From: Oceanobacillus luteolus
Lineage (GTDB): Bacteria; Bacillota; Bacilli; Bacillales; Amphibacillaceae
Length of the DNA stretch: 64,000 nt
Reading direction: 5' to 3'
Assembly (NCBI RefSeq): GCF_023715655.1
Contig: NZ_JAMBON010000015.1
Span: 1 to 64,000 of the forward strand
In this document: positions 15,079 to 61,223 of the stretch, piece by piece
Layout of the letters: each line of letters begins with the position of its first letter
Numbering within the stretch: the first letter of the stretch is position 1
Notes under the pieces: model-generated
What the model was told of the DNA's origin: nothing
What the model saw: only the letters and a program-made list of their open reading frames with translations
Databases searched by the model: none
Made by a program: the position numbers and the translations under genes

Positions 15079-15242
15079 GCAATCCAAATACCCCTCGGCC
15101 CGTGAACCTCCGACGCACAAGATGTGCAAGTGCAGACATTGCCACAGGACATGGCGTTCCTATTCAGCCTCAGGCGCAAGCGCCCTGCGGGGTCTCACTC
15201 TGGCCTATCCCCCTGCAGGAGCCTTGAGGTATTTGGACTGCT
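15079..15242 (-). repeat. Long-hairpin intergenic repeat, family 1, copy A
   Basis: The outer arms GCAATCCAAATACC (from 15079) and GGTATTTGGACTGC (ending 15242) pair with one mismatch. Read on the minus strand the core shares GTGAGACCCCGCA and GAGGCTGA with copies at 15423 and 34486. It carries the extra hairpin cassette at 15115-15155 that copy B lacks. Elements with this core occur between genes in many Bacillaceae; their function is not known to me. Confidence 0.8.
15115..15155 (+). repeat. AGGA-loop hairpin cassette in repeat copy A
   Basis: Two small hairpins in tandem: GCAC-AAGAT-GTGC (15115-15127) and GCCAC-AGGAC-ATGGC (15141-15155, one mismatch). The same cassette occurs at 34560-34613 (minus strand) and 48454-48510 (plus strand). 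Confidence 0.65.
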
Positions 15243-15422
15243 CCAAGGAATATTTTAATTTGAATCACTGAATCTCAATAAATGTACCTTTAAAATGTGT
15301 GTACTTTAATAATTCATGACCCATAAAAAAAATAGCAATTACTTATATATTTATTCAGTATTAACGGATAAACACTCAAATCATTAAAAAGATTGATGCA
15401 CTAATCTTCAGCCTCCCTCTGA

Positions 15423-15542
15423 GCAGCCCCCATACACCGAAGACTTCTGCGGGAGGAAAGGCATCGGTGAGACCCCGCAGGGCGGTTACGCCCGAGGAGG
15501 CTCAACAGCCGCCCGCGAAAAGCGAAGGTGTATGGGGGCTGC
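15423..15542 (+). repeat. Long-hairpin intergenic repeat, family 1, copy B (no cassette)
   Basis: A perfect 16-bp terminal inverted repeat, GCAGCCCCCATACACC at 15423-15438 and its complement at 15527-15542. The arm sequence is unrelated to the arms of the other two copies. The core (CTGCGGGAGG, GGCATCGGTGAGACCCCGCA, GGAGGCTCA, CAGCCGCCCGCG) matches copy C closely. The roughly 50-base AGGA-hairpin cassette is absent. Confidence 0.85.
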
Positions 15543-15586
15543 GAACCTCCAGGAGAAAGGCTCTACTCTATCATGAGTGAACTAAT

Positions 15587-34485: not shown

Positions 34486-34664
34486 AGCTCCGGAAATATA
34501 CGTAGACTCCTGCGGGATGAAAGGCATCGGTGAGACCCCGCAAGACGCTTGCGTCTGAGGCAGACTAAGTGCGCCACGTCCTGTGGCAACGTCTGCATTA
34601 GCACGTCCTATGCGTTGAGGCTCACCAGCCGCCCGCGCGGAATGCGCAGTATATTTCCGGAGCT
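34486..34664 (+). repeat. Long-hairpin intergenic repeat, family 1, copy C
   Basis: A perfect 15-bp terminal inverted repeat, AGCTCCGGAAATATA (34486-34500) and its complement (34650-34664). The core shares GGCATCGGTGAGACCCCGCA and CAGCCGCCCGCG with copy B, and the arms differ from both other copies. A cassette of about 50 bases with AGGA-loop hairpins interrupts the core at 34560-34613. This and flanking sequence fill the gap between the LLM gene and mrpG. Confidence 0.85.
34560..34613 (-). repeat. AGGA-loop hairpin cassette in repeat copy C
   Basis: On the minus strand the loop of GCCAC-AGGAC-GTGGC (34573-34587) presents AGGA. An outer helix GCAGAC/GTCTGC (34560-34565 with 34591-34596) encloses it. 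A second AGGAC block lies at 34604-34609. Compare 15115-15155 and 48454-48510. Confidence 0.65.
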
Positions 34665-43445: not shown

Positions 43446-44010
43446 GCAAATTTGATTCTCCGTTTGGGCGATTAGAACGGTGAGAACGGGGATGAGCGAC
43501 CGAGTACAGAAGGCGACTCTGTGCTCGGGCGGTGAGAACGGCGATGAACGACCGAATAAGGAAGTAGACTCAGCATTCGGGCTATGAAGATAGCGATGAA
43601 CGACCGAATACAGAAGTAGACTCAGCATTCGGGCGGTGAGAACGGCGATGAACGACCGAATACGGAAGTAGACTCAGCATTCGGGCGGTGAGAACGGGGA
43701 TGAGCGACCGAATACAGAAAGCGACTCTGCATTCGGGCAATGAGTACGGCGATGAGCGACCGAATACAGAAAGCGACTCTGCATTCGGGCAATGAGTACG
43801 GCGATGAGCGACCGAATACAGAAAGCGACTCTGCATTCGGGCAATGAGAGCGGCGATGAGCGACCGAATACGGAAGGCGACTCTGCATTCGGGCAATGAG
43901 AGCGGCGATGAGCGACCGAATACGGAAGGCGACTCTACATTCAGGCAATGAAGACAGCGATGAACGACCGAATAAGGAAGGCAGCTCTGCACTCGGAAAA
44001 ATTAGAGCAG
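43446..44010 (+). repeat. Tandem array of ten 52-bp units
   Basis: GACCGA-type unit starts fall at 43498, 43550, 43602, 43654, 43706, 43758, 43810, 43862, 43914 and 43966, exactly 52 bases apart, with a degenerate extra unit before them. Each unit has an 11-bp inverted pair (CCGAATACAGA with TCTGCATTCGG, one mismatch, 7-base loop) joined by GCNRTGAGNACGGCGATGAGC. Minus-strand ORFs here are translations of the repeat and are not called as genes. The array fills most of 43353-44106. Confidence 0.9.
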
Positions 44011-48409: not shown

Positions 48410-48416
48410 TTCAACT

Positions 48417-48640
48417 AAGGCTGAAGCGGCCGTTTAGGGACGGCCGAACTGCGCCCCACAGGACGTGGGGTGGTTCGATGTTGCCCCAGGATGGGGCGTT
48501 CTTAGTCGAACTTCCCCTATTTCAGGAAGATAAAGGAAACACAGCGACGCAAGGAGCCGATGATGACTTATCGACCGGAAGTACATGAAGTTCGGGCAGT
48601 CCCTGGCCGCAGAAGCTAGCCGTAACAAAAGCAAAAACAC
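48417..48640 (+). repeat. Structured intergenic repeat, family 2, copy 1 (with AGGA cassette)
   Basis: It shares with 59645-59828 (opposite strand) the blocks GTTTAGGGACG, ATAAAGGAAACACAGCGAC, TGACTTATCGAC and GCAGTCCCTG, and AGAAGCTAGCCG. AGGGAC pairs with GTCCCT in both copies. CCGAACT (48444-48450) pairs with AGTTCGG (48589-48595); the second copy has TCAAACT/AGTTTGA at the same places. The AGGA-hairpin cassette at 48454-48510 is inserted between two GAACT repeats and is missing from copy 2. Confidence 0.8.
48454..48510 (+). repeat. AGGA-loop hairpin cassette in family 2 copy 1
   Basis: Hairpin 1 is CCCCAC-AGGAC-GTGGGG (48454-48470). Hairpin 2 is GCCCC-AGGAT-GGGGC (48483-48497), enclosed by TTCGA/TCGAA (48474-48478 with 48506-48510). 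The layout and the GTTGCC and TTAGTC linkers match the cassette in family 1 copy C. Confidence 0.7.
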
Positions 48641-50573: not shown

Positions 50574-50608
50574 TTGGAGAGAGTTCTTCTATTGAAAGGT
50601 ACTGCTTT

Positions 50609-50895
50609 AATGTAGAGAATAAACTTACATGAGAGCTCTCCTCTTGTCAGATTATCCTTCAATACAGAGAGTAAACTTACATGAGAGCCCTCCTCTTGTC
50701 AGATTATCCTTCAATACAGAGAGTAAACTTACATGAGAGCCCTCCTCTTGTCAGATTATCTTTCAATACAGAGAGTAAACTGACATGAGAGCCCTCCTCT
50801 TGTCACATTATCCTTCAATACAGAGAGTAAACTGACATGAGAGCCCTCCTCTTGTCAGATTATCTTTCAATACAGAGAGTAAACTGACATGAAAA
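50609..50895 (+). repeat. Tandem array of 52-bp units (five and a half copies)
   Basis: AATACAGAGA-type starts fall at 50609 (variant), 50661, 50713, 50765, 50817 and 50869, exactly 52 bases apart. Each unit contains TGACATGAG or TTACATGAG, a GC-rich 7-base middle and CTCTTGTCA, an imperfect hairpin. The sequence is unrelated to the 52-bp units at 43446-44010. It lies between the yhfK terminator and the terminator of the dioxygenase gene; no ORF is supported. Confidence 0.9.
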
Positions 50896-59644: not shown

Positions 59645-59828
59645 GTTATTAGAGTTCGGCCGCGGTCGTTTTCGCTTTTGATTCGGCTAGCTTCTGAGGG
59701 CAGGGACTGCTCAAACTTCGTCCGCTTCCAGTCGATAAGTCAACATCAGCTCCCGTTGGTCGCTGTGTTTCCTTTATCTCCTTGCACCGTACTCCAGTTT
59801 GAACGTCCCTAAACGCCCTCTTCAGCTT
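59645..59828 (-). repeat. Structured intergenic repeat, family 2, copy 2 (no cassette)
   Basis: Reverse orientation relative to 48417-48640, sharing GTTTAGGGACG, ATAAAGGAAACACAGCGAC, TGACTTATCGAC and AGAAGCTAGCCG. The pair TCAAACT (59711-59717) and AGTTTGA (59796-59802) replaces CCGAACT/AGTTCGG of copy 1. It lies between ugpB and glpQ in the operon direction. Confidence 0.8.
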
Positions 59829-59831
59829 TTG

Positions 59832-61223
59832 TTATTCCCCTCTTGCTGCGTTGGCTTGTTCGATGGCTGCGTTTAGTTGTTCTACCATGGCATTGTATGT
59901 TTCGTCTAGGTCGCCGCCATTGTAGATTGTTTCAAGTGCAGTTTCTACGATTCTTCTTTCTTCTGGAATCATGTCCATTACCGCACCTTGTGTTGCGTAG
60001 GACGAGTTCGTTTCTTGCAATTGTTGAACCGTCACTTGTAATTGAGGCATTTCTTCATAAGCTTCTTGAACAACTTGCTCATCATAAGCTGCTGGATTAA
60101 TGGCAAAGTATCCTGTGTTTACATGCCATTCTGCTTGGATCTCAGGTTGTTGTACGAATTTCATGAAGTCCCAAGCTGCATCTTTTTCTGCCTGCTCTTT
60201 TCCATCTACCATCCATAGACTAGCTCCACCAATAACTACTCCTTCTCTATCCACGTTCTCTGGGTGTGGAAGGAATGCTACGCCTACTTCGAATGGTGCG
60301 TTATCAATCACATCACGGGAGCTTGCTGAAGACTGAAGGAACATCGCCACATCACCAGCTAAGAATCCAGAAACCATGTTATCACCGTTTGTTCCATAAT
60401 TAGCGAATGTGCCATCATTCACCATATTTTCTACCCATTGGAAGATACTTTTACCTTGCTCTTCTGTAAAGCCGATTTCTGTTGGAGTATCTGTACGTCC
60501 GTTATCGTTGTTCATTAGAAGTGCACCTTGGTTTGCAAGTAATTGTTCGAATAACCAACCATATGCTTGTAGTGCAAATCCTCTCATGTCAGGATTAGCT
60601 TCCATGATTTTCTTGCTCACTTCTTCAATTTCTTCAAAAGTAGCTGGTGGTGTTTCCGGGTCTAAACCAGCTGCCTCAAATGCATCTTTGTTATAGTACA
60701 TGACAGGTGTGGAAGAGTTGAACGGCATGGAATAGAATTTATCATCGATCGTATAGTAGTTTACAATATTTTCTTCTAAGTAACTCATATCATAGTTTTC
60801 CGCATCCACATAGTTTTGGATCGGTTCAATCTGACCACTGTTGATCATCGACATCGTACCAATTTCAAACACTTGAATCATCGTCGGTGCACTATCTGTT
60901 CCTGCCACACTATGGAACTTCGTTAGTGCTTCGTCATAAGTACCTTGGTACTCCGCATTTACTTGAACTTTATCTTGGGACTCATTGTAGGCATCTACAA
61001 TTGCATTAATCGCTTCTTGACCAGCTCCACCCATCGAGTGCCAGAATGTAACGATTTGTTTCTCATCGCTTTCCGCTTCTGAACCGGCATCAGTATTTGA
61101 TCCGCTAGTTGAGGACGCATCAGAAGATGTATCATCCGACTCTTCTGCTTCCCCTTCCGAACCGCAAGCTGCTGTGATGAGTAATGCAAATACCATGAAC
61201 AAAACCGCTAAAAACTTTTTCAT
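59832..61223 (-). CDS. ugpB: Glycerol-3-phosphate ABC transporter binding lipoprotein (UgpB)
   Basis: 463 residues. Lipoprotein signal (FALLITAACG, cysteine near 20), S/D/E-rich linker, then the UgpB pattern VTFWHSMGGAGQEAINAIVDAYN (about 58-80), SMPFNSSTPVMYYNKDAFE and GGASLWMVDGKEQAEKDAAWDFMKF. The aromatic and W-H-S motif near the start fits glycerol-3-phosphate or glycerophosphodiester binding. ATG 61223 (MKKFLAV) is used. Last transporter gene of ugpC-A-E-B. Confidence 0.88.
   Translation of the reverse strand: MKKFLAVLFMVFALLITAACGSEGEAEESDDTSSDASSTSGSNTDAGSEAESDEKQIVTFWHSMGGAGQEAINAIVDAYNESQDKVQVNAEYQGTYDEALTKFHSVAGTDSAPTMIQVFEIGTMSMINSGQIEPIQNYVDAENYDMSYLEENIVNYYTIDDKFYSMPFNSSTPVMYYNKDAFEAAGLDPETPPATFEEIEEVSKKIMEANPDMRGFALQAYGWLFEQLLANQGALLMNNDNGRTDTPTEIGFTEEQGKSIFQWVENMVNDGTFANYGTNGDNMVSGFLAGDVAMFLQSSASSRDVIDNAPFEVGVAFLPHPENVDREGVVIGGASLWMVDGKEQAEKDAAWDFMKFVQQPEIQAEWHVNTGYFAINPAAYDEQVVQEAYEEMPQLQVTVQQLQETNSSYATQGAVMDMIPEERRIVETALETIYNGGDLDETYNAMVEQLNAAIEQANAARGE

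Follow-up and report, generated by a model that had tools for sequence, protein, structure and literature searches.

Bacillaceae-1 and comparable repeats

The closest described relative of the hairpin cassette analysed here is the Bacillaceae-1 family of Rfam (RF01690; Weinberg et al. 2010, PMC2864571), which has the same sequence and structure and is catalogued as a small RNA without known function. Its reverse complement has been proposed as a CsrA binder, in a published hypothesis (PMC4333381). The element itself, through Rfam, and the CsrA hypothesis were already known; the separable, mobile nature of the element was not found in the searched literature, where we came across no open-access paper describing Bacillaceae-1 as mobile, which is not proof that none exists. 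In contrast to the Rfam description, the cassette is here a separable, dispersed insertion that occurs in both orientations, and it includes a UAAA sub-family that does not score above the Rfam cut-off.

Comparable architectures are found in organelles, where double-hairpin elements and short palindromic repeats, for example those of Volvox, comprise two hairpins, or palindromes, of comparable size, which are inserted into spacers and into one another and occur in both orientations (PMC2670323). TAAA/TTTA loops are also present among the Volvox-type repeats, the mechanism of which is unexplained (PMC2670323). The cassette shares with them two adjacent hairpins, presence and absence at otherwise identical sites, both orientations, and nesting, but it resides in bacterial chromosomes and keeps a fixed internal loop and conserved hairpin loops across many genera, and the likeness concerns architecture. 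REP/BIME sequences with RAYT (PMC3733652, PMC2817692) are likewise high-copy extragenic palindromes, whereas the cassette is not associated with Y1 genes; the word Firmicutes is absent from the REP survey consulted. MITEs (Bcr1 and others) are small and non-autonomous, as the cassette is, but the cassette has neither clear terminal inverted repeats nor a target duplication. Finally, Bhal-1, a 74-nt repeat present 36 times in B. halodurans, and a stem-loop cluster in rRNA precursors of B. subtilis have been reported (PMC2267715), and either may, by its description, be the same element as the cassette.

Cassette copies in the window

According to a cmscan search of the window (the whole stretch of DNA analysed, 64,000 nt), the module noticed there in two larger repeat families, family 1 and family 2, is RF01690. 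One cassette, in family 2 copy 1, lies at 48455 to 48521 on the minus strand (63.3 bits, E 2.9e-9; 70.3 bits with our own covariance model, built from 24 diverse copies), and a second, in family 1 copy C, at 34550 to 34614 on the plus strand (49.1 bits, E 5.8e-6). Both exceed the Rfam gathering score of 35 bits, whereas the cassette of family 1 copy A (15114 to 15178, minus strand), which has decayed, falls below it, with 26.8 bits (E 0.014) for the Rfam model in a whole-genome search and 26.2 bits (E 1.7e-4) for our own. The initial annotation had placed the module in these same three repeats, as the searches confirm. Fifteen cassette matches were found in this genome, 11 of them over the Rfam cut-off, and the top-scoring one (L001) is located between 23S and 5S, just upstream of 5S.

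In the 48455 copy, hairpin 2 occupies 48454 to 48470 and hairpin 1 occupies 48483 to 48497, both with the loop AGGA on the plus strand, while the outer helix pairs approximately 48472 to 48479 with 48505 to 48512. DNA folding of this copy gave z values of -3.4 and -4.1 on its two strands; in copy A the folding signal is gone (z -0.03). The host repeat that this cassette splits, family 2 copy 1, extends from 48413 to 48638 on the minus strand, was recovered by blast in two pieces (48413 to 48451 and 48528 to 48638), and sits, judging by the flanking ORFs, in a convergent intergenic region.

Filled and empty sites

The cassette is an insertion separable from both family 1 and family 2, which are represented in this genome by 36 and 28 pieces, respectively. 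In the family 1 alignment, 16 copies run uninterrupted from CTGAG into GAGGCTC (or a close variant), and 9 carry a cassette of 57 to 59 nt exactly at that junction; the inserted unit of copy C spans approximately 34560 to 34616, and a cassette-minus copy at 15420 to 15545 (plus strand) has its empty site at about 15496/15497. The family 2 alignment contains 3 filled and 18 empty copies, and here an insertion of about 65 to 75 nt takes the place of about 10 nt of the host. Family 2 copy 1 differs from the cassette-minus copies over 48452 to 48526 (minus strand), and the family 2 copy at 59655 to 59845 (plus strand) lacks the cassette. The module is thus absent from the sister copies at 15420 and 59655, as originally reported; its original size estimate of 40 to 60 bases is to be corrected to the values given here for the two families. 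GAACT had been read as its boundary on both sides in family 2; this did not hold, since the left one is family 2 sequence (AGACT in the filled copy L002) and the right one is part of the outer helix of the cassette, and for the same reason we rejected GAACT as a target duplication. Across the junctions, which are clean, we found no target duplication beyond 1 to 3 ambiguous bases and no clear terminal inverted repeats of the MITE kind, and no target consensus could be extracted.

The same cassette is common to hosts that are unrelated to one another, namely family 1, family 2, a MITE of genome G028, a repeat of genome G138, rRNA and tRNA operons, and other cassettes. In the G028 MITE, which has terminal inverted repeats and target duplications of its own, one locus is empty (AAATTAGAAGCAAGCAGG; L054), another shows the same site with 58 nt added (L058), and a third also holds two cassettes (L050). 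In the 16S leader of one genus, the site GTAGTCAGTCAAACTACTTTATCGGAG is empty in L230 to L232, and 65 nt are inserted there in reverse in L229; within the single genome G306, the leader is empty in one operon (L232) and filled in reverse in another (L126). A related group carries the cassette forward in the 16S leader (L127, L205, L212), in G159 one operon has it (L128) and a sister operon has an unrelated TTCG hairpin instead (L209), and the comparison of L222 with L223, L224, and L227 reveals another separate event in a 16S leader. A protein gene is affected in G013, where the cassette frameshifts an ORF (L019) which, from its translation, we take to be Rpn/PD-(D/E)XK-like, and an intact paralogue elsewhere in the genome (L201) is 94% identical to the joined flanks. 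Cassettes broken by other cassettes occur in G067. The occurrence of filled and empty alleles at several unrelated kinds of site strongly supports the early suggestion of a small module inserting into larger repeats. Within each host family the insertion site is fixed, and because all copies in one host family share that site, the many copies reflect few insertion events.

Structure and covariation

Read on the Rfam strand, the cassette consists of an outer helix set around hairpin 1 via a fixed internal loop (CUAAGNNC facing AAC), followed by hairpin 2, and both hairpins carry the same short loop, (R)UCCU; two hairpins with such loops and an outer helix around the first are what characterizes Bacillaceae-1. 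The internal loop and the two hairpin loops are the parts that stay constant across copies. The AGGA loops of the initial annotation are correct for the strand on which the module was then read, which is opposite to that of Rfam.

Among 92 distinct copies, standard pairs fill 96.6% of the base-pair cells and compensatory double changes occur at 16 of 17 pairs, with none of 500 shuffles as good, although the alignment was fitted to the covariance model, so that the pairing counts lean towards the model (controls in which it was slid were 23 to 39% paired). The outer helix, which had been noted to differ between copies yet remain paired, is 93.8% paired over the 92 sequences and shows compensatory change at 7 of 7 pairs. 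The pair cells comprise 1,474 Watson-Crick, 10 G-U, and 25 A-C pairs. In 45 tRNAs from the same loci we counted 906 Watson-Crick and 61 G-U pairs, which makes G-U rarer in the cassette (p 5e-16), with the reservation that pairing in this imperfect control depends on ARAGORN's own rules. Wobble pairs are rare on either strand of the cassette, and the few G-U pairs may partly stem from recency or gene conversion. On the Rfam strand, A-C stands to G-U as 17:9 (p 0.17), or as 25:10 (p 0.017) if the outermost pair is counted; this balance does not support selection of the UCCU strand as RNA, and it leans, weakly and inconclusively, to the AGGA strand.

In two family 2 copies of this genome (L013 and L015), the architecture is retained but both loops are UAAA. 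When 159 genomes were searched for the pattern of this sub-family, 29 sites came up in 5 of them (G049 alone accounts for 23), with the hairpin 2 loop matched or nearly matched in almost all, while the reversed control pattern gave one chance match. The UAAA copies share one host site and therefore represent few events. The matched UAAA loops suggest a common reader for the two. A matched loop change was seen only in this sub-family; within the UCCU family, the loop variants of the two hairpins showed no obvious correlation at the C/G position.

Distribution across genomes

Cassette matches are present in 109 of the 146 genomes of the window's family, often in at least 29 copies, and one complete genome has 94; in the class-level sample, 80 of 399 genomes have matches over the cut-off. 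The family 1 type was also found in Oceanobacillus indicireducens, O. alkalisoli, and Virgibacillus litoralis. The 69-nt consensus had no match in the plasmid and phage collections searched. In a test that takes the start of each record to be the replication origin, the cassettes of G091 are distributed 62 to 8 between the replication strands, and those of four other genomes show no bias; we did not use the G091 bias as evidence, since a larger oriented repeat seems to carry its copies along.

Mode of spread and alternative explanations

These comparisons demonstrate that the cassette is structured, that it is a separable insertion found in both orientations and at multiple host sites unrelated to one another, that it nests, and that it is widely dispersed. 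The explanation that we favor as reasonably probable is a non-autonomous mobile double-hairpin DNA element of about 57 to 68 bp that is carried along by larger repeats. Bacillaceae-1 behaves as a two-hairpin insertion of about 60 bases and is probably not a regulatory RNA that soaks up CsrA. The cassette would enter spacers and the apical portions of other palindromic repeats in either orientation, mostly without duplicating the target, and it would multiply mainly as a passenger of spreading hosts, that is, family 1, family 2, MITEs, and, by gene conversion, rRNA operons. A putative trans-acting recombination or transposition factor may recognize the cassette as folded single-stranded DNA, reading its loops and internal loop; this would account for loops that change together and for Watson-Crick helices with few G-U pairs. 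What is catalogued as a small RNA family and annotated across many Bacilli genomes would then appear to be mobile DNA in cassette form, and finding it in a genome should not be taken as a sign of a regulator. It would also give the organelle double-hairpin elements a counterpart in bacteria.

The bolder version, a new class of bacterial mobile DNA, is tentative and has in our judgment a rather small chance of being right. Here, the mobilizer would read the loops of the two hairpins on folded single-stranded DNA. The loops would act as a key, exchanged as a matched pair between sub-families (UCCU/UCCU and UAAA/UAAA) beside a CUAAG/AAC internal loop that does not change, and the cassette would home to the tips of other hairpins and to the 5' flanks of genes for rRNA and tRNA.

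A different role is conceivable at those flanks. The cassette might be a domesticated processing element whose hairpins mark or insulate the 5' ends of 16S, 5S, or tRNA precursors, the dispersed copies being escapees. Besides L001, just upstream of 5S, there are six loci in which the cassette ends only about 0 to 4 nt from a mature start, that of 5S in L138 and L141, of 16S in L126, L127, and L130, and of a tRNA in L142, and one tRNA cluster holds three cassettes. B. subtilis has ten rRNA operons. Eight Bacillaceae-1 copies are reported in that species by BSGatlas (PMC8208703), and we infer that these are the rRNA copies. Abutment on mature 5' ends hints at selection on position, the alternative being that insertions are tolerated in spacers directly preceding mature RNAs. 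Next to 5S and tRNA genes the transcribed strand is UCCU, but upstream of 16S the cassette is found both ways round. Together with the sister operons of G306 and G159 that lack the cassette, the location of most copies in the window's family of genomes outside rRNA operons, and the rarity of G-U pairs, this leaves a processing element unlikely. Natural plus and minus alleles in paralogous rRNA operons of one genome nevertheless offer a test of what a hairpin beside a mature rRNA end does.

It is also quite unlikely, in our view, that the cassette is an ancient, inseparable block of several repeat families that is spread by host amplification and gene conversion and is not mobile itself. The single fixed site in each host family would fit such a block, as would the G028 copies that ride in a MITE with target duplications, but many independent insertions would be needed to account for hosts unrelated to one another, for an interrupted protein gene, for nesting, and for one leader with cassettes in both orientations, and the Rpn-gene paralogue pair (L019/L201) points towards insertion at a unique, non-repeat site.

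The initial annotation had considered a CsrA/RsmA-like binding or sponge role, in which the AGGA strand would be the RNA. The AGGA hairpin loops, the published motif match (PMC4333381), and the slight excess of A-C over G-U on the Rfam strand (A-C there being a would-be wobble on the AGGA strand) speak for it. However, 6 of 10 genomes without csrA contain cassettes, among them single-contig genomes with 22 (G006), 26 (G054), and 10 (G129); no association between csrA and the cassette was detected in their co-occurrence (p 0.27). On the AGGA strand, GGA is present in both loops of 56 of the 92 copies and in one loop only of 34, so that 36 (39%) lack the core in at least one loop, and the loops of the UAAA sub-family have no GGA. 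With UCCU as the transcribed strand in 5S spacers and tRNA clusters and with both orientations in 16S leaders, a sponge is very unlikely, though individual cassettes may occasionally bind CsrA.

The other early suggestion, a REP-like mobile hairpin, describes the behavior of the cassette better, yet membership of the REP/RAYT system, with a Y1 gene flanked by the palindromes, was not borne out. We searched for Y1 genes with PF01797, including their flanks in 14 genomes and for presence in 146. None of the Y1 (IS200/IS605, RAYT) genes of the 14 genomes is flanked by cassettes, Y1 genes are missing from cassette-rich genomes (G014, 24 copies; G026 and G058, at least 32 each), and no other candidate for a mobilizing enzyme was found; a requirement for Y1/RAYT was rejected on these grounds. 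Movement by an IS200/IS605-type transposase is therefore highly improbable, even though two similar hairpins of the same orientation, the missing target duplication, and insertion both ways round resemble single-strand transposition and G091 has its strand bias, which the four other genomes do not share. CGTC, which like GTAG is a REP tag expected at the foot of the hairpin, was noticed, unsystematically, within a cassette loop (ACGTCCTGT) and, in the short type, following hairpin 2.

Other repeats

Family 2 is itself modular, with outer arms AGGGAC/GTCCCT (48413 to 48638 and 59655 to 59845 in the window; L250 to L278, G049, and others), and UCCU or UAAA cassettes sit at different sites in different family 2 copies. 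Two further arrangements were observed: L136 (G274) has, at approximately 1480 to 1900, tandem cassette hairpins (CCGCATCCTGCGG / ACGTCCTGTGCACAACGC) in which numerous UCCU loops follow one another, next to GGAACTTTCGCTAA repeats, and in L023 (G034), at approximately 1501 to 1700, a cassette is fused to a 5S rRNA-like fragment without its 5' half, apparently a 5S-derived repeat that carries a cassette. The window also contains two tandem arrays: about ten head-to-tail units of 52 nt (GCGGTGAGAACGGCGATGAACGACCGAATA...) at 43477 to 43996, near converging genes and with a period that is not a multiple of three, and a second, unrelated array of about six units (ATGAGAGCCCTCCTCTTGTCAGATTATC...) at 50577 to 50890, the period of which is again 52 nt.
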